Of a stretch of 64,000 nucleotides of DNA, positions 4,146 to 52,612 are shown piece after piece. A program made the translations under genes and the position numbers. The stretch's first letter is position 1; the number at the start of each line of letters is the position of its first letter. Below the pieces are notes generated by a model that worked only from the letters and a program-made list of their open reading frames with translations, was not told the DNA's origin and made no database searches. Origin of the DNA: Salinarchaeum sp. Harcht-Bsk1 (GTDB lineage: Archaea; Halobacteriota; Halobacteria; Halobacteriales; Salinarchaeaceae); contig NC_021313.1 of the NCBI RefSeq assembly GCF_000403645.1, positions 2,499,014 to 2,563,013 on the forward strand, read 5' to 3'.

Positions 4146-5003
4146 CTACTCGCTCAGTCGCGCGTACTCCTCGTCCGTCAGTTCGATCTGACTGGCTGCC
4201 ACGTTCTGTTCGAGGTGTTCGACGCTGGAGGTGCCGGGGATCGGGAGGATCACCGGCGAGTGTTCGAGCAGCCACGCTAGCGCGATCTGCTGGGGCGTCG
4301 CGTCGTGGGCCTCGGCGACGTCGGCGACGACGGACTCCTTCGAACCGAGGTCGCCACCGCCGAGCGGGAACCACGGGATGAAGCCGATGCCGGCGTCTTC
4401 GCAGGCCTCGAGCACGGCCTCGTCCTCGCGGTTCCCGACGTTGTACTGGTTCTGGACGGTCGCGATCTCGACGACGTCCCGGGCCCGTTCGAGCTGCTCG
4501 ACGGAGACGTTGCTGAGTCCGATGTGCTCGACGAACCCGTCGTCTTTGAGTTCCGCGAACGTCTGGACGGCCTCCTCGAAGTCCACGTCGGGATCGGGCC
4601 GGTGGTACTGGTAGAGGTCGATCGTGTCGACGCCGAGCCGGTCCCGGCTGACGAGCACCTGATTCCGAACGTAGTCCGGATCGCCGTGCTTGAGCCACTC
4701 GCCGCCGGCTTCCCGAAGCAGACCGGCCTTGGTCGCGAGGACGACGTCGTCCTGGTCGTACTCGTCGTGGGCCTCGATGGCCTCGCGGAGGATGCGCTCG
4801 CTGACGCCGGGGCCGTAGGAGTCTGCAGTGTCGATCACGTCAACGCCGAGATCGAGTGCACGCTGGACCACCCGGCGGGCTTCGGCCTCGTCGTTTGGCC
4901 GGCCGATGATATTCTCGCCGGTCAGTCGCATCGCACCGAAGCCGAGCCGGTGGACGGTCAGGTCGCCGCCGATGTCGAACGTGCCGCTCTCGTTTGCTGG
5001 CAT
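4146..5003 (-). CDS. Aldo/keto reductase
   Basis: A 285-residue NADPH-dependent oxidoreductase of the AKR fold. The catalytic tetrad is visible: Asp and Tyr in DTADSYGPG, Lys in LATKAGLL and His in YQYHRPDPD. The family signature GIGFIPWFPLGGGDLG and the C-terminal PIPGTSSVEHLEQN cofactor loop are present. The start at 5003 (MPANESGTFDIGGDLTVHRLGFGAMRLTG) is preferred over one nine codons upstream because the family begins close to the LGFGAMRLTG strand. It probably reduces small aldehydes or ketones; the substrate is unknown. Confidence 0.88.
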   Translation of the reverse strand: MPANESGTFDIGGDLTVHRLGFGAMRLTGENIIGRPNDEAEARRVVQRALDLGVDVIDTADSYGPGVSERILREAIEAHDEYDQDDVVLATKAGLLREAGGEWLKHGDPDYVRNQVLVSRDRLGVDTIDLYQYHRPDPDVDFEEAVQTFAELKDDGFVEHIGLSNVSVEQLERARDVVEIATVQNQYNVGNREDEAVLEACEDAGIGFIPWFPLGGGDLGSKESVVADVAEAHDATPQQIALAWLLEHSPVILPIPGTSSVEHLEQNVAASQIELTDEEYARLSE

Positions 5004-44700: not shown

Positions 44701-45291
44701 ATGTCATCGGAACCCACAGCGAGCGTCTACCGGCTCCACTCCACACTCGAACTACCACTCGAGGACGTCCACGATCTCGTGGACGAGGCGAACTTTCCGG
44801 AGGGGGTAGCGGACGTCGACGTGACCCGACGAAACAACACGCTCATTCTCAGCGCGACGGCGGAGGACACCTCGATCAGCAAGTACACGCCCACGGCGCA
44901 GCTCAAGGCCAGCGTCGTCGAGAACCGCGTCTACGAGGAGGACCCCGAGGAGGTCCGCCGACGCCAGGGCGGTCCTTCCTGGGGCGAGGAGGAAGAAGAG
45001 GAGATCGAGTCCGAACTCGTCGAGTACGCCGCGTTCAAGGGCGACCGCGAGACCGTCCTCCAGAACACCCAGCTCCAGTACGAGATGTTCCAGGTACTCC
45101 GCGAGATCGCACTCATCTCCGAGAAGGGCACCCTCACCGCGATCACCTGCGAGGACGGCGAACTCGACTCCTGGCGCATCGTCGAGGGCGACGAGCGCCC
45201 CTCCAGCATCGAAGTGGTCGAGGGCCCCGCCGACGAGGACGCCGCACAGAGTGGCGTCAACTGGCGGGACAACAAGTTCATCTCGGACTGA
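44701..45291 (+). CDS. DUF7110-like conserved haloarchaeal protein
   Basis: 196 residues. The N-terminal segment (YRLHSTLELPLEDVHDLVDEANFPEGVADVDVTRRNNTLIL) and YTPTAQLKASVVENRVYEED are what I recall for the haloarchaeal DUF7110 family. A run of acidic residues (WGEEEEEEIESELVEYAAF) follows, then GDRETVLQNTQLQYEMFQVLREIALISEKGTLTAI, and the end GVNWRDNKFISD. The last six codons are repeated about 4.2 kb downstream (49451-49471), so this gene's 3' end looks like the integration site of the next island. Function unknown. Confidence 0.75.
   Translation: MSSEPTASVYRLHSTLELPLEDVHDLVDEANFPEGVADVDVTRRNNTLILSATAEDTSISKYTPTAQLKASVVENRVYEEDPEEVRRRQGGPSWGEEEEEEIESELVEYAAFKGDRETVLQNTQLQYEMFQVLREIALISEKGTLTAITCEDGELDSWRIVEGDERPSSIEVVEGPADEDAAQSGVNWRDNKFISD
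45271..45291 (+). repeat. Left att-like repeat (3' end of the DUF7110-like gene)
   Basis: AACAAGTTCATC-TCG-GACTGA, the last codons (NKFISD stop) of the host gene. 18 of 21 bases match the right copy at 49451-49471. Confidence 0.6.
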
Positions 45292-45406
45292 GGCTACCTA
45301 GGTCTTATACACCTAGTTGGCCTTGAACCGCCAACATTGTTCGGTGATTGAGCTGAGATCATAGCCGTGCGCAATGCTTAACTGAGTCTCATCATCATAC
45401 CAGGGC

Positions 45407-45541
45407 ATGGCTATTTCGGGGGATTCTAACGGAGAGCTCGAACGGAAACTCTGGAACAATTGCAGAAGAGAAAATTAGCACTGAAACGGGAATACGGAGT
45501 TGCTGAGGAGGAGATAGTCGTTGAGGATCGCCTGCTGTAGC
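45407..45541 (+). pseudogene. Frameshifted remnant of a small gene
   Basis: An ATG at 45407 opens MAISGDSNGELERKL, and a +1 shift after that gives LEQLQKRKLALKREYGVAEEEIVVEDRLL to a stop at 45539-45541. Both halves look like genuine charged coding sequence, but a stop interrupts the first frame. The family is not recognisable. It could instead be two chance frames in AT-rich DNA. Confidence 0.3.
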
Positions 45542-45652
45542 CGATATTGGGGTAAGCAATCTGGTGTTCGTTGCCTATTCTATACCAAGTGAAGGGGTTA
45601 CAATCAGGACAGTGCGGTAATAGCAGAGGGGTGGGAGCGGACACTACTCAAG

Positions 45653-46606
45653 TCAGCTAAGGTCCAATGATGCAATTCGAGGTTCGAATTCATCTTGGAA
45701 TGAATCCATAGCGTCCACCCCCCATTCGATCAGTTGCCCCTGTTGATCTCCATCTAACTCGGTGATCTTCCCATCAATTGATTTCGACCATTTGATCCGG
45801 CAGGCACGCTTTTCTGGCAACCGTTGCCACACTAAATCCGTGTCAAGGTTGGACTCGATCTCTGCTCTTTGCTCTTTCAGCGCCTCAAAGATAGCTAAAT
45901 TCTGCTCGGCGTCTGCGGTCTGTATATATAGCTCAACGCAGTACTCTGGCCCTTGGTGAAAGACCCATCCGAAGCTAACTCCGGCGATCCCTGCGCTGAA
46001 GGTGAGATAATTTCGAGGACCAGGTTTTAGCTCCGACCAGCGTGGCCGTCGTTCTGAGTATGCTTCTACCAAGTCTGCGAAATACTCCCGATAGCTCCGT
46101 TCCGTTTCCGAAAGTGATTCATCTGTAATTTCGCGCTCCCAGTCATTAGGTTCCACGACAATTTCGAATTCGAAGCCACGCTCATCTGTGTCCGCAATAC
46201 TGAGCACCCGCGGTTTTATCGCGAAGAACTTCACATCGTTGGGACCGCTTTCGTTGAGCCACTCGAGGACACTCCGATGTTCGGGTCTGAAGTGTTCAGC
46301 GAGCCATATTGAGAACCCGGCGTCCTTCCCAGAGGAATACGTTAACAATTTGCCGAGGTGGTCGTGATCGGTATTCCCGTACTGGTTCTCTATAACGACT
46401 GTTTCACCGGTGTTCATTTCTCGCGCCACAATGTCCGAAGAGAAGTCTCCCACGGTTTCTTCGGTACGAGCGTCTTCAATTTCGATCCCTAGCTCTGCCC
46501 CGAGCAACTCGATATTGTCCCCGAGCCAACGGGTGAAGCCGCGCTCCTCGTTTTCCCACACTGTTCGAAGCTGGTGTTCCTGAATCCGTGCAATGTGTTC
46601 GTCCAT
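45653..46606 (-). CDS. DUF4268-domain putative PD-(D/E)XK nuclease
   Basis: 317 residues. A PD-(D/E)XK-like core lies in the first third: D58 in FSSDIVARE, then VVIENQYGNTDHDHLGKLLTY with E73-N-Q75 in place of ExK. The rest matches the DUF4268 region (RSYREYFADLVEAYSERRPRWSELKPGPRNYLTFSAGIAGVSFGWVF, then EALKEQRAEIESNL and a C-terminal helix). DUF4268 proteins are typically linked to restriction or other defence loci. Codon use is AT-rich compared with the chromosome. Probably a restriction or nickase-type enzyme; target unknown. Confidence 0.8.
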   Translation of the reverse strand: MDEHIARIQEHQLRTVWENEERGFTRWLGDNIELLGAELGIEIEDARTEETVGDFSSDIVAREMNTGETVVIENQYGNTDHDHLGKLLTYSSGKDAGFSIWLAEHFRPEHRSVLEWLNESGPNDVKFFAIKPRVLSIADTDERGFEFEIVVEPNDWEREITDESLSETERSYREYFADLVEAYSERRPRWSELKPGPRNYLTFSAGIAGVSFGWVFHQGPEYCVELYIQTADAEQNLAIFEALKEQRAEIESNLDTDLVWQRLPEKRACRIKWSKSIDGKITELDGDQQGQLIEWGVDAMDSFQDEFEPRIASLDLS

Positions 46607-46770
46607 ATGGATATGCTACGCTGGGAACGACATCAACAGAGGGGGTTTCGTAAGTGACCTAGCCCAAGCCCGTTGGGTGAGTTGAATTTGAATTCTGACA
46701 GAGGGGAGTGGGATCGCCAGTGGTAGCAGATGGGTGAATAGTTCATATGGTTAATCCACGAAGAAGTCGG

Positions 46771-48051
46771 TCAATCCAGGGATGCACCCCCAACTGCCTC
46801 TTGATGAATCTGGTCAGCGATTTCAGCAACTTGCTGATGCTCCTCAAAAGCTGTTGCAAGCGTCTCGAAGTAACTTCCCGGTAGACGCGACTGATTTACG
46901 TCGTAGGTCTTTGTGGTGTAATCCTGTTTGTTCCCCTTATTGGTGATGTCCCGCTTCCCAAGCATTGGCTTCAGTTGTTCCTGCCACCGATCGCTATTGA
47001 AACGGCGATGAAACTCCGAGCGGATGTCGTTATTGGTGGATGACCGAAGTTTCATCGTCAGTTCCCCGTCTCGGAAAGAGCTCTCATTCCGTATGAGATG
47101 GATCAAATGAAGGCGATGACCACCATCTTCCCGGGTATCAGACACTTCCGTAGTTGGATCGCCTTCTCCGTCTAGATACCAGCCATCACGGAATAGACAG
47201 CCATACTTGTCAGGCCGGGCGTGCCATTCCTCTGACCAGATATCCCGTTCCTCGGCGATCTCAAGGAAGGGTGGCGCCCACTCGCCGTTTCTGGCAAGAG
47301 AACTTCGGAGCGAATCAGCTGCACCGAATAGCTCGTCGATTTCGTCGCGATACTCGGCGAGTAGCTGGATCTTCTCTTTCTGTGTCTCCGTGAAATCGTC
47401 TGGTTCCATGTTTGTGACTCCACGTATTGTATTGAGGAAATCGGCCAACTGGTTTACACTCAGTTCTGGATACTGCCCTCGGTTTCTGTTCAACTCCGTC
47501 TGAAGGACGGTAGCGACGTCCTCCCAATACAGATCAGCAAAACCATCGGAGCCAGCGTGGTTCCCCCCACGGCGAGAGAGAAATACGTAGAAGTCCCCAT
47601 CATCAGGATAATCCTCTTTCTCTTCACCGCCTATATTTGGGTCGTTGAGGTATCTCTGAAGCTGGTTCTGCCCCTCCGGTGCGTCTACCTTACATTCGAT
47701 GCAGACGAACCACTTGTCTGGGACACGAATTACAATATCTGGCCGGTTGTTCTGCGGAGAGGAAACCTCACTATCGACACGAACCGTCTGAAGGTCCCGG
47801 TAGTAGTAATCGAGAGGCGCTACCGTGTGTTCGTCCACTAAATCCAAGAATTGCGTGAGCAAGGAGGCGTCGAAGCCATGCGGCTGGTCCGGATCGAGAA
47901 AATAGGTCAGGAGCGTGTTCCAGGACTGCTCAGACCGTGCAGAACCCAGCACTCGGAGCAGTGGCTGGGGTGGCTCTTCGACAGCTGGAATGGCCTCCAA
48001 ACTCTCGCGCAACTCTCGAAGTTCGTTTTGAAGGTCAATACTCTCTGCCAT
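46771..48051 (-). CDS. PD-(D/E)XK nuclease superfamily protein (PDDEXK_4-like)
   Basis: 426 residues. The nuclease core is near residues 100-135: NRPDIVIRVPDKWFVCIECKVDAPEGQNQLQRYL, with D105 and E119-C-K121. This NRPDI and ECK-x-QL arrangement is that of the PDDEXK_4 (PF14281) family. Downstream GFADLYWEDVATVLQTEL and a long C-terminal domain (residues 200-426, helix-rich, FHRRFNSDRWQEQLKPML) are not recognised. It is upstream of, and in the same direction as, the DUF4268 gene (164-base gap), so possibly in one transcript. Its role in DNA degradation is inferred from the fold. Confidence 0.82.
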   Translation of the reverse strand: MAESIDLQNELRELRESLEAIPAVEEPPQPLLRVLGSARSEQSWNTLLTYFLDPDQPHGFDASLLTQFLDLVDEHTVAPLDYYYRDLQTVRVDSEVSSPQNNRPDIVIRVPDKWFVCIECKVDAPEGQNQLQRYLNDPNIGGEEKEDYPDDGDFYVFLSRRGGNHAGSDGFADLYWEDVATVLQTELNRNRGQYPELSVNQLADFLNTIRGVTNMEPDDFTETQKEKIQLLAEYRDEIDELFGAADSLRSSLARNGEWAPPFLEIAEERDIWSEEWHARPDKYGCLFRDGWYLDGEGDPTTEVSDTREDGGHRLHLIHLIRNESSFRDGELTMKLRSSTNNDIRSEFHRRFNSDRWQEQLKPMLGKRDITNKGNKQDYTTKTYDVNQSRLPGSYFETLATAFEEHQQVAEIADQIHQEAVGGASLD

Positions 48052-48293
48052 CGGTATGTCTGAGACAAGCTACGTTCATTAGTAGGAGGGAAGTGATAAC
48101 AGGCAGCACGAACAAGAGAAGAGTTCAGCTTACCATCCGGGTGTGGACAGAGCGAATGCGTAGATGAATAGAAGGTACCACATCACCTGGGACTAAATCC
48201 ATCCCAGAACTCCGCTTCGGCCGAACAATCCACAATGCAGCCATATTAGTACTGAAGAAATACCTATTGCTATCGACATTCAAGATTGGCCTG

Positions 48294-49349
48294 ATGATCT
48301 TCTCCGTTGATCAAGACACCGACGAGCTCCAATATCTATCGGGGCAAGATTTCGCACAGTTGGATATTCTCGAACGCGAGCATCTGGAGGAGTGGGCGAT
48401 CGAGGAGCCTCGAATTCTGGGCGAAGAACTTCTGGTGATCGCTTCAGAGTATGCCAAGTTCCAAGACTTACGAGAACGCCTGGATATTCTAGCTCTCGAT
48501 TTGGAGGGGAAGCTAGTCACGATCGAACTCAAGCGTGACAAGGCCGATCGTACCACCGATTTGCAGGCGATCAAATACGCCAGCTACTGTGCGACGCTTA
48601 CGGCAGAGGATGTACAGAAGGATTATCGGAACTTCTGGAACGAGCGTAACGGTACTGATCTTACGCCAGAGGATGTTGGCGAAGAGTTCGTAGATTTCCT
48701 TCCGCAGGATGTGCTTGACGAGGTGTCATACACCGATGAGGGATGGGCGAATTTTGAGTTGGATGATAGGCCGAGGATCCTGCTTGTCGCTGGTAGTTTC
48801 GGACCGGAGATCACCTCGCCAGCAATGTGGCTCAGGGAGGAGTACAACATGGACATCACCTGTACGAGGATTGAGGCATACAAACATCGAGACAGAGTGA
48901 TCCTCAATAGCCAGCAGGTGATCCCCATTCCCGAAGCAGAAGAGTATCTGACCAAGCGGCGTGAAAAAGAAGAGAAGCAGAAGAAAACCTCGGTGACGTA
49001 TACCCTTCCAGCGCTTCTGGACCGGGGAGTATTGACGGAGGGCGATATCGTTGTGTTTCAAGAATCAAAGGTTCCTGCGGATTCGTCCAAAGAGTGGGAT
49101 CCCGAGAGCGATTATTGGCGGGCCCGGATTACTGGAGAGACCGGTCAGCAAGACAACGTTGAGTGGCTAGAGAACGGAGAGATATACTCGTTTACGGGCT
49201 TGACGAGGGAGATTCTCAACCGTCTCGTCGATCGAGACAAGGACAAGCCATTGAACGGGTATTCCTACTGGATACATCCGGAATTCGGTGGGAGAACGTT
49301 GTTAGAATTACGTCAGGAGAACGTCAAGGGGGAAGACCGAGAAAGGTAG
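48294..49349 (+). CDS. NucS/DUF91-like nuclease fused to a RAMA domain
   Basis: 351 residues. The N-terminal domain (about 1-185) resembles the DUF91/NucS endonuclease fold: LEREHLEEWAIEEPRILGEELLVIASE, then D64 in ERLDILALD and E78-L-K80 in VTIELKRDKADRTTDLQAIKYASY. A charged linker (KRREKEEKQKK) is followed by a RAMA-like domain (about 235-341): LPALLDRGVLTEGDIVVF, WRARITGE, then GEIYSFTGLTREI and NGYSYWIHPEFGGRTLLELR. RAMA domains are found in restriction systems and are proposed to read adenine methylation. It is probably a modification-sensitive defence nuclease. ATG at 48294 is chosen; TTG at 48267 is an alternative. Confidence 0.82.
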   Translation: MIFSVDQDTDELQYLSGQDFAQLDILEREHLEEWAIEEPRILGEELLVIASEYAKFQDLRERLDILALDLEGKLVTIELKRDKADRTTDLQAIKYASYCATLTAEDVQKDYRNFWNERNGTDLTPEDVGEEFVDFLPQDVLDEVSYTDEGWANFELDDRPRILLVAGSFGPEITSPAMWLREEYNMDITCTRIEAYKHRDRVILNSQQVIPIPEAEEYLTKRREKEEKQKKTSVTYTLPALLDRGVLTEGDIVVFQESKVPADSSKEWDPESDYWRARITGETGQQDNVEWLENGEIYSFTGLTREILNRLVDRDKDKPLNGYSYWIHPEFGGRTLLELRQENVKGEDRER

Positions 49350-49450
49350 CTTATAACAATAAATATATTGAAATAATTGGGCATAGAGTCGCCAATTTGG
49401 TGTCTTATGAAACTGAATGTTATATGATACATAGGCACCTATCCAGCCGG

Positions 49451-49471
49451 AACAAGTTCATCAGCGACTGA
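49451..49471 (+). repeat. Right att-like repeat
   Basis: AACAAGTTCATC-AGC-GACTGA encodes NKFISD stop, the same six codons as the DUF7110-like gene's end, with a synonymous Ser codon (AGC for TCG). It is preceded by CCAGCCGG and followed by GC-rich chromosomal DNA, which marks the island's right edge. Confidence 0.6.
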
Positions 49472-49558: not shown

Positions 49559-50791
49559 CTAACCGTCCGTCGGAGCCGCGCCGACCTCTTGCATGTATCC
49601 ATCCAGCGTCTCCACGAGTAGCTGGGCGAATGCCTCGTCGTTGACGTGTGCATCTGCTTCGATGAGTTCGACGCCGTTCTCGGCCACCTCGGACCGCAAC
49701 GTATCGAACAGCGCGCCGTCGGCTTCGGCGTCGTAGAAGTCCTCGCCAACCGCGTCGATAGCCGAGACGCCCTGGAGCGGCAGCACGAGCGCGGTCGGTC
49801 CAGTGGCGTCGTTCAGCTTCCCGGCGATGATCTCCCCGAGTTCGACGTTCTCCTCGACGGTCGTCCGCATAAGCGTGACTTGCGGGTTGTGAACGTGGAA
49901 CTGCCGCTCCTCGAACTCCTCCGGAACCGAGTCGCGCGGCCCGAAGTTGACCATGTCGAGGGCGCCGGTCGAGACGACCTGCGGAATCCCCGCCTCGCCC
50001 GCCGCTTCGAGGCGCTCCTCGCCAGCGTTGAGGACGCCCCCGACCAGTTCGTCGGCCCACTCCGTCGTCGTCACGTCGAGCACGCCGTCGATGACGCCCT
50101 CCTCGATGAGCGACTCCATCGCACGCCCGCCGGTGCCGGTGGCGTGGAACACGATCGTCTCGTACCCTCGGTCTTCGAGCAGCCCCCGGGCCTGCTGCAC
50201 GCAGGGCGTCGTCACGCCGAACATGGTGATCCCGATCGTCGGCCGCTCCTCGACCTCCACGTCGGGTTCGTTCGCGACCATCCCGACCATCGCGAGCGCG
50301 GCATTGGCGATGACCTGCCGGGAGAGCTGGTTGAGCCCCTCGATGTCGGCGACGGAGTACAGCATCGCAACGTCACGTGCACCCACGTAGGGCTCGGTGT
50401 CGCCGGAGGCCATCGTCGAGCACATCAGCTTCGGCACGCCGACCGGCAGACTGCGCATCGCGGTCGTCGCGATCGAGGTGTTCCCGGATCCGCCGAGGCC
50501 GAGCACGCCTTCGAGGACACCGTCGTCGTAGAGCTGCTGGCAGATGGCGGTCGCGCCCTCGCCCATCGCCTCCATCGCAGCCCCGCGATCCTCGTCCTCG
50601 CGGAGCTGTTCGAGCGTCGTCCCGGCGGCCGCAGCGACGTCGCTCGCAGGGGTATCCGGATCGATCTCCGGGTCGCCGAGCACGCCCACGTCGACGAGGT
50701 GGACGTCCAGCCCCTCGGCCTCGATCACGTCCCGGGCGAACGCGATCTCCTCGCCCTTCGTGTCGAGCGTGCCGACGATGACGACGCTCAT
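49559..50791 (-). CDS. Tm-1-like ATP-binding protein (UPF0261)
   Basis: 410 residues. The N-terminal half is a UPF0261 fold: VVIVGTLDTKGEEIAFARDVIEAEG, then GEGATAICQQLYDDGVLEGVLGLGGSGNTSIATTAMRSLPVGVPKLMCSTMASGDTEPYVGARDVAMLYS. The second half (PTIGITMFGVTTPCVQQARGLLEDRGYETIVFHATGTGGRAMESL) completes the family. The tomato antiviral protein Tm-1 joins this domain to a PEP_hydrolase-like TIM barrel; here the partner is a separate gene at 51249. It is third in an operon: its start overlaps the cupin stop by four bases. Confidence 0.9.
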   Translation of the reverse strand: MSVVIVGTLDTKGEEIAFARDVIEAEGLDVHLVDVGVLGDPEIDPDTPASDVAAAAGTTLEQLREDEDRGAAMEAMGEGATAICQQLYDDGVLEGVLGLGGSGNTSIATTAMRSLPVGVPKLMCSTMASGDTEPYVGARDVAMLYSVADIEGLNQLSRQVIANAALAMVGMVANEPDVEVEERPTIGITMFGVTTPCVQQARGLLEDRGYETIVFHATGTGGRAMESLIEEGVIDGVLDVTTTEWADELVGGVLNAGEERLEAAGEAGIPQVVSTGALDMVNFGPRDSVPEEFEERQFHVHNPQVTLMRTTVEENVELGEIIAGKLNDATGPTALVLPLQGVSAIDAVGEDFYDAEADGALFDTLRSEVAENGVELIEADAHVNDEAFAQLLVETLDGYMQEVGAAPTDG

Positions 50792-51252
50792 TCGTCTCCC
50801 TCACTGGCGGCCGGATCGTTTCCGCCGTCCGACCGGCCGCGGTCAGTCGTCGGTATCTCGCCAGGCGGCACGATCTCGCACTCGGGGAGGTCCCCGAGGA
50901 CCTCCTCGGGTCCGGGCGGCGCGTAGACGGCCAGCAGGAGCAGCGGCTCCCAGTCGGTGTTGACGGTCCCGTGTTCGACGCCCTCGGGGACGAACACCAG
51001 GTCGCCGGCCTCGACGTCGAACGTCTCGTCGGCGACCTCCTGCTCGCCCTCCCCGCGGACGACGTAGAGGATCTCGTCGCTGTCAGGGTGGGTGTGTCGC
51101 TCGTGGCCCCGTCCCGGTTCGAGTTTCACGATGCCGGCGCTGAAGCGCTCGCCGCCGGTCACTGCGGGCGTGCTCAGCCACTTCAGCACGCCCCAGTCGA
51201 AGACCTGGCTCTCGACGTCGTCGGGGCCGACGAGGTACTCGGGGTCGCTCAT
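50788..51252 (-). CDS. Cupin-domain protein
   Basis: 154 residues. Cupin motif 1 is GHERHTHPDSDEILYVVRGEGE, and motif 2 GDLVFVPEGVEHGTVNTDWEPLLLLAVYAPP. The metal-binding His residues are present. It lies between the PEP-hydrolase-like gene (stop overlap ATGA) and the Tm-1-like gene (ATGA), suggesting a shared function in small-molecule metabolism. The tail (TTDRGRSDGGNDPAASEGDE) is disordered and acidic. Confidence 0.9.
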   Translation of the reverse strand: MSDPEYLVGPDDVESQVFDWGVLKWLSTPAVTGGERFSAGIVKLEPGRGHERHTHPDSDEILYVVRGEGEQEVADETFDVEAGDLVFVPEGVEHGTVNTDWEPLLLLAVYAPPGPEEVLGDLPECEIVPPGEIPTTDRGRSDGGNDPAASEGDE

Positions 51253-52085
51253 GTGACGTCGATCTCCTTGAAGGCGCGGGCCTGTTCCTCGATGGCCTGC
51301 TCCGTGGGGAGCCGCTCCAGGCTGGAGGCGCCGAAGAAGCCGAAGACGCCGTCGGTGTGCTCGAGCACGTACTGGGCGTCGTCTGGCCACGCGATCGGCC
51401 CGCCGTGACAGATCACGAGCACGTCGTCGTTCTCTGCCGTCGCCGCGTCGTGGTGTGCCTGGACGCGCTCGGCGGCGTCGTCGAGGTCGAGTGCCGTCTC
51501 GGCGCCGATGTCCCCGGAGGTCGTCAGCCCCATGTGCGAGACGATCACGTCGGCGCCGGCTGCCGCCATCGACCGGGCCTGTTCCTCGGAGAAGACGTAC
51601 GGGCAGGTGAGCATCCCCCGGTCCGACGCCGCCTGGATCATCTCGACCTCCTTGTCGTAACCCATCCCGGTTTCCTCGAGGTTCTGCCGAAACTGGCTGT
51701 CCTCGTCGATGAGGCCGACGGTGGGGAAGTTCTGGACGCCGGAGAAGCCTCGTCGGTCGAGTTCCTCGAGGAAGACGTCCATCTGGCGGAACGGATCGGT
51801 CCCGTTGACGCCCGCGAGGACCGGCGTGTCCTCGACGACGGGCAGCACCTGTCGACCCATGTCGACGACGATCTCGTTCGCGTCGCCGTAGGGAAGCAGG
51901 CCGGCGAGGGATCCGCGGCCGTTCATCCGGTAGCGCCCGGAGTTGTAGATGATCAGCAGGTCGACGCCGCCGCGTTCCGCGAACTTCGCCGACATGCCGG
52001 TTCCGGCACCCGCGCCGATGATCGGTTCCTCGTTCGCGACGGTTTCGGTGAGTCGCTCGAGCGACTCGTCACGCGTAAATTGCAT
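51249..52085 (-). CDS. Phosphoenolpyruvate-hydrolase-family TIM-barrel protein
   Basis: 278 residues. It starts MQFTRDESLERLTETVANEEPIIGAGAGTGMSAKFAERGGVDLLIIYNSGRYRMNGRGSLAGLLPYGDANEIV, the signature of the PEP_hydrolase family (PF09370), later VVEDTPVLAGVNGTDPFRQ, GVQNFPTVGLIDE, AGADVIVSHMGLTTSGDIGAETALDL and VLVICHGGPIAWPDDAQYVL. This domain is the C-terminal half of plant Tm-1-type proteins. It is the first gene of the operon with the cupin and UPF0261 genes. Its reaction is not established here. Confidence 0.9.
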   Translation of the reverse strand: MQFTRDESLERLTETVANEEPIIGAGAGTGMSAKFAERGGVDLLIIYNSGRYRMNGRGSLAGLLPYGDANEIVVDMGRQVLPVVEDTPVLAGVNGTDPFRQMDVFLEELDRRGFSGVQNFPTVGLIDEDSQFRQNLEETGMGYDKEVEMIQAASDRGMLTCPYVFSEEQARSMAAAGADVIVSHMGLTTSGDIGAETALDLDDAAERVQAHHDAATAENDDVLVICHGGPIAWPDDAQYVLEHTDGVFGFFGASSLERLPTEQAIEEQARAFKEIDVT

Positions 52086-52168
52086 CGTCGGCTGCGCGCT
52101 ACGGCAGCGGCGGAGTTCACTATGCGCAGGATACTGGGCTCTGTCCCGATTTCCTGCAGCGTCGCGGG

Positions 52169-52411
52169 TTACTCGCCCGCGTCGTCGAGCACAGTCCTGA
52201 GGGCGTCCAGTCCGATCGTCGCGACGAAACAGCAGATCCCCAGATAGAGCAGCACTCGCGACTCGAGCGGGTGAGAACCCCCGGGAGCGTCGCCGTACCA
52301 GATCAGCGAGCCGATGAACCCCAGCGTCGACGCGGTCCATCCGAGACCGGTGATGCCGGCCAGCTCGTGGAGAAACTGCTCGTCCGACAGGATCTCGGGC
52401 TTCAGTGGCAT
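52169..52411 (-). CDS. Small membrane protein
   Basis: 80 residues starting MPLKPEILSDEQFLHELAG. Two hydrophobic segments (LGWTASTLGFIGSLIWYG and VLLYLGICCFVATIGLDALRTVL) predict an inner-membrane hairpin. Family unknown. It stands 83 bases upstream of the PEP-hydrolase-like gene on the same strand, so it may be the first gene of that transcript, but has no sequence link to it. Confidence 0.6.
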   Translation of the reverse strand: MPLKPEILSDEQFLHELAGITGLGWTASTLGFIGSLIWYGDAPGGSHPLESRVLLYLGICCFVATIGLDALRTVLDDAGE

Positions 52412-52612
52412 TCGTGGCTCGTCCTCGCGGTAATCCACCCATACCGGGGTGAATGTAAGAAGCTATTTTCGGGGTGGGTAGCAACCCACTACCACGTCGA
52501 ACCGGTTGCTGGAGAATCGGTGACGATTGCTGTAGATTCGGATACGGTTGGTTACCGGGGGAGCAACCACGGCCCGGATCGCGGCCCAGGCCGCGCCGGC
52601 CAGTAGGGCCGG

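Follow-up and report, generated by a model that had tools for sequence, protein, structure and literature searches.

The DNA analyzed here (the window, 64,000 nucleotides of Salinarchaeum sp. Harcht-Bsk1) contains on the plus strand a DUF7110 gene encoding 196 aa (44701..45291; PF23422, E 2.8e-96), which we regard as the target of an integration that very probably supplied its last codons. The gene ends in AACAAGTTCATCTCGGACTGA at positions 45271-45291, and this sequence recurs in direct orientation as AACAAGTTCATCAGCGACTGA at positions 49451-49471. The first copy completes the gene and the second forms the far end of an islet; together they enclose 4,180 bp with about 51% GC in a chromosome of 65-70% GC. 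The GC content was 0.49-0.55 between about 45.3 and 49.4 kb and amounted to 0.62-0.71 in both flanks. Both copies encode NKFISD followed by a stop codon, so that the reading frame of the target is kept by the tail, and the exact core common to them is 12 bp. The two 21-mers are thus located where a previous sequence-only reading of this DNA had placed them, bounding about 4.2 kb of AT-richer sequence, and the synonymous serine codon that it described (TCG versus AGC) was borne out. Within the window they were the only matches at up to 3 mismatches, with 0.01 matches expected from shuffling. A degenerate pattern for NKFISD plus stop gave 2 matches in the whole 3.26-Mb genome, which are both junctions, and the reversed control pattern gave 0. 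A search of the window revealed no tRNA near the islet.

The left, attL-like junction (45271..45291, plus strand) consists of the core AACAAGTTCATC followed by the tail TCGGACTGA, which would be supplied by the element; the sister species has AGC where TCG is found here. Directly after the stop codon lies an inverted repeat (45291..45323, arms 45291-45303 and 45311-45323), a candidate recombinase arm site.

Between the junctions three long open reading frames with matches to nuclease families were identified, in agreement with the description of this region as a nuclease islet, and all three are uninterrupted. The first encodes a DUF4268 protein of 317 aa on the minus strand (45653..46606; PF14088, E 1.9e-33; PADLOC model PDC-S11, E 7e-100) with a variant nuclease-like motif, IENQ, recognized by eye. 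The second, also on the minus strand, encodes a protein of the PD-(D/E)XK nuclease family with 426 aa (46771..48051; PF14281, PDDEXK_4, E 3e-13; PADLOC model PDC-S26, E 3e-22). The third encodes on the plus strand a NucS-C-like nuclease of 360 aa, counted from the first TTG (48267..49349), which matches the N-terminal half of PDC-S11 (E 2e-67) and falls just below the cut-off for the Pfam family NucS_C. Its motif E87-L-K89 is conserved in 19 homologues. Of 283 genomes of the order, 19 contain this NucS-like gene, the window genome among them, and both relatives from the family lack it; where the positions of both genes were listed, no homologue elsewhere was located beside DUF7110. Relatives of the three cargo proteins were found singly, on different haloarchaeal plasmids. 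A sequence match in the PDB was obtained neither for the first nor for the third protein. The three PD-(D/E)XK-type nucleases all match PADLOC candidate (PDC) defence models and are candidate defence genes, with a role in defence suggested by these matches.

Close to the left end, at positions 45445..45537 on the plus strand, we identified a remnant of 31 residues which corresponds to the C-terminus of a protein encoded beside the right border of a larger element in another genome, G325 (tblastn E 1e-4). The BLOSUM62 score of this alignment was 85, compared with a maximum of 42 in 1000 shuffles. A TnpB-like interpretation of the segment 45440-45650, made by eye, was dropped in favor of this tested homology. 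As the remnant lies near the left end here and its counterpart near the right end in G325, the islet appears to be rearranged or mosaic.

The polarity of the two copies could be derived from Salinarchaeum laminariae, which belongs to the same genus as the window organism. Strain R26 of this species contains an unbroken DUF7110 gene without an islet, and its gene ends in AACAAGTTCATCAGCGACTGA, identical at 21/21 positions to the right, attR-like junction of the window (49451..49471, plus strand). The right copy is accordingly the displaced native 3' end of DUF7110 and the left copy the element tail. The topology leads to the same assignment, since in a Campbell-type integration everything left of the crossover remains that of the gene and the part to the right is contributed by the element, which makes the gene-attached TCG copy the element tail. 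The serine codon alone would leave the polarity undecided, because a more distant member of the family (G001) has TCT at the end of its DUF7110 gene; topology and sister sequence fix it. The origin of one copy from another allele, as proposed in the sequence-only reading, was therefore confirmed, but the foreign copy is the first one, attached to the gene, and the second is native.

The same reading had suggested a search for genomes with an unbroken gene end followed directly by the Tm-1-like operon. The unbroken end was found in S. laminariae, but the operon does not follow it there; a dodecin-like gene is located 132 bp past the DUF7110 stop codon instead. In the window the right copy and the dodecin-like gene are separated by about 3.1 kb of GC-rich sequence, part of which is the UPF0261 (Tm-1-like) operon. 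This GC-rich cluster of UPF0261 (Tm-1-like) and cupin genes (49559-52600) is absent from the locus in S. laminariae, and a search run without a positive control gave no match for the first protein of the operon in G002 or G001. Immediately beyond the displaced copy the sequence did not align with the S. laminariae flank. Because this flank is unaligned and 3.1 kb intervene compared with 132 bp in the sister, the comparison does not show the empty site at the level of single bases. The 3.1-kb segment probably represents a separate gain or loss.

As far as the core, the DUF7110 gene of the window is 91% identical to that of S. laminariae. The gene is widespread, being present in 368 of 392 sampled genomes of the order, and few parts of the protein are as well conserved as its C-terminal block GVNWRDNKFIS. 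In an AlphaFold model this block is predicted to come after a linker of low confidence, and a Foldseek search with the AlphaFold model yielded no relative of solved structure (best E 0.03). At the DNA level AACAAGTTCAT was present exactly in 68 of 80 DUF7110 genes, a degree of conservation that would suit an attachment site with a broad host range. One genome (G413) contains two matches to the DUF7110 end, on two replicons.

To look for comparable arrangements we performed pattern searches for the DUF7110 end in the 392 genomes. A second copy on the same strand, at most 15.1 kb downstream, was detected in the window genome (G000) and in G325, G355, G383 and G322. The arrangement in G325 (11.57 kb), G355 (15.06 kb) and G383 (14.31 kb) is the same as in the window, so that the search for other islets ending in a copy of the tail, also suggested beforehand, yielded three among the 392 genomes of the order. 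The reversed 21-nt control pattern matched once in the 392 genomes. A shorter pattern of 18 nt was used for G383 and had about ten control matches; this case therefore leans mainly on position and flanks. A set of 125 genomes from the family of G325, which largely overlaps the 392, gave no new case. In all four elements the copies agree over AACAAGTTCAT, which is common to all junctions, and similarity is lost immediately to its left.

The intervals in genomes without these elements are short. The gene right of the G325 element is located 71 and 129 bp past DUF7110 in two Natrinema loci and 11.7 kb past it in the carrier, and the gene right of the G355 element 43-44 bp past it in Haloarchaeobius and 15.1 kb in the carrier. 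For the G383 element the gene on the right is PAPS-reductase-like; it lies 101-151 bp past DUF7110 in several genera and 14.5 kb in the carrier. Among haloarchaea the PAPS-reductase-like gene is found at distances of about 0.1 to 7.6 kb from DUF7110 (loci L008-L086), mostly without a detectable copy of the tail; the downstream neighbourhood is variable in general.

The fifth hit, in G322 (locus L059, 8400-11170), was not counted with these, as it represents another type of event. Here the duplication is longer: about 130 bp from the 3' end of DUF7110 recur 2.6 kb downstream, and the two copies enclose GC-rich DNA with a GC-rich membrane-protein gene. In G014, a fragmented genome with a completeness of 78%, DUF7110-tail sequence was found without a preceding gene (L119, 4393-4413; L120, minus strand, 4219-4239). 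Downstream of this orphan tail, 72 bases show 93% identity with the corresponding flank of the real gene, which is located on another contig.

Comparison of the two copies in each of the four elements showed seven nucleotide differences, all of which are synonymous when stop codons are counted. Assuming random substitution outside the 11-base core, the probability that all are synonymous is about 8e-6 as the product over the four elements. The tail agrees in each case with the host's own ending (NKFISD, NKFITD, NKFISD and NKFIS). Since the tail of the element encodes the same peptide, the DUF7110 product is unchanged by the insertion.

Two of the larger elements encode a candidate for the inserting enzyme. 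Inside the elements of G325 and G355 we found tyrosine recombinases of 311 and 313 aa (Pfam Phage_integrase) which are 85% identical to each other and are preceded in both cases by a partner protein of 190 aa. A recombinase of this type was detected only in G325 and G355 among the 392 genomes; no other match exceeded 53% identity (next best 52-53%). The chance of such a co-occurrence of the recombinase with the occupied site is about 8e-5, and from this co-occurrence we infer that the longer recombinase acts at the DUF7110 end. Each full element contains in addition a second, short protein with a Phage_integrase domain (L116, 7354-8025, plus strand; L117, 11773-12396, minus strand), which lacks the N-terminal SAM-like domain present in the longer one. 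A relative of the recombinase was not found in viral contigs, and the best match in phage and plasmid records was 42%, on a Natrinema plasmid.

Neither the recombinases (four queries) nor the partner protein of G325 and G355 matched the window islet at E 0.1, and to this threshold the islet is without a detectable integrase, as the sequence-only reading had stated. The nearest recombinase above the cut-off in the window genome is 40% identical and located 1.27 Mb away. The G383 islet likewise gave no match to the G325 and G355 recombinases at E 0.1. Adjoining its right junction, a decayed fragment of the partner gene with an in-frame stop codon was observed (L152, 15654-15743, minus strand). 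No intact gene is common to the window islet and the G325 and G355 elements.

The element borders were compared with tests that were chosen after inspection of the sequences and cover four elements. The right arm of the window islet, meaning the 50 bases preceding the right core (49401..49450), aligns to the right arms of the G325 and G355 elements; with G325 the alignment scored above all 2000 shuffles, and with the G355 arm p was 0.018. The inverted repeat just past the stop codon was present at 4/4 left borders, compared with 4/72 element-free control genes at the same score.

Taken together, the best explanation for these observations as a whole, in which we have high confidence, is that the islet is a mobile element integrated into the 3' end of the DUF7110 gene with a restoring tail. 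The sequence-only reading had proposed such an event, and the proposal is now backed by the gene end of the sister species, three more genomes, a common recombinase, similar borders and differences that are exclusively synonymous. In the proposed mechanism a tyrosine recombinase would join the site of the element to the last DUF7110 codons within AACAAGTTCAT(C), the likely position of the crossover. By this step the gene would gain the element's TCG-GAC-TGA, and its native AGC-GAC-TGA would be pushed 4.2 kb downstream. The probable recombinase is found in the larger relatives that occupy this site in G325 and G355; the window copy retains both junctions and the three nuclease genes. As this copy contains no integrase, the enzyme was most likely lost by internal deletion or else was supplied in trans. 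The window islet most likely belongs to these insertions as a mosaic or as a form with an internal deletion. At least four such insertions are thus found at the DUF7110 gene end across haloarchaea, two of which retain the probable inserting enzyme.

An alternative that we consider unlikely is that the islet never carried an integrase of its own and was mobilized in trans, as a satellite-like element borrowing the enzyme from larger elements at the same site. Both junctions are kept without a recombinase, the right arm is similar to the one in an element that has an integrase, the nuclease genes are uninterrupted, and G383 provides a second integrase-less islet at the same site. However, the protein remnant in the window and the decayed partner-gene fragment in G383 point to loss from larger elements, and a second copy of the islet was not found. 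Somewhat less probable still is the more general proposal that defence islets which lack an integrase at the DUF7110 site behave as mobile satellites: their junctions would be compatible with those of full elements, and they would be excised and inserted in trans. If this were true, the DUF7110 end would be a common docking site at which nuclease cargo is exchanged between haloarchaeal genera.

It is very improbable that the gene end was duplicated locally, or that it recombined homologously with a DUF7110 fragment of foreign origin, and that unrelated insertions came later. The duplicated end of about 130 bp lying 2.6 kb away in G322 indicates that a different case of this kind may exist, but identity between the copies is limited to the core of 11-19 bp in all four clean cases; leftward, where gene meets element arm, they diverge at once, and two of the four carry the same recombinase. 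That the 21 bases bordering the AT-rich islet are alike by accident, a case which the sequence-only reading had itself considered, can be dismissed: 0.01 matches are expected in the window, both copies are on one strand, the match lies exactly where the composition changes, and the arrangement is repeated at the same gene in three other genomes.

Integration into the 3' ends of protein genes, the reading preferred here, is already known from e14 in icd and from the thaumarchaeal element NitEve-E2. The e14 prophage of E. coli inserts in icd (PMC11148124, citing Hill et al. 1989), and this insertion lies in the reading frame of a conserved gene, with a mostly silent replacement 3' end and displacement of the native end to the far side, as in the islet. 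It differs in being a bacterial prophage with a duplicated segment of 165 bp, whereas the haloarchaeal islet has a tail of 21 bp with an identical core of 11-12 bp and no integrase in the window copy. In thaumarchaea 14 of 68 integrated elements, including NitEve-E2, are located in 3'-distal regions of protein genes (PMC6563490). NitEve-E2 likewise is archaeal and occupies a protein gene at its 3' end, with an att site of 13 bp; the frame is rebuilt by element sequence, and the element was identified via an empty relative. In contrast to the tail described here, which encodes the same peptide, it brings non-homologous codons, and its target gene and host phylum are different (PMC6563490). The Halorubrum virus BJ1 has its att site in the HMG-CoA reductase gene (review PMC8371274); it shares with the islet the combination of haloarchaeal mobile DNA and an att site in a protein-coding gene, but the gene is another one and BJ1 is a virus. 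A classical (non-suicidal) haloarchaeal tyrosine integrase accompanied by small accessory genes may be a further likeness, to SNJ2-type systems (PMC8371274). According to the same review, recombination at archaeal att sites in protein genes has still to be tested. In the open-access literature searched we found no account of elements repeatedly using the DUF7110 end, and DUF7110 itself is unmentioned there.

The comparison indicates how such elements spare their host, namely by bringing a synonymous copy of the codons that they displace. The end of the widespread haloarchaeal DUF7110 gene emerges as a recurrent docking site for which a candidate recombinase, element ends and both occupied and empty sites are at hand, and with these components an archaeal attachment site in a protein gene becomes directly testable.
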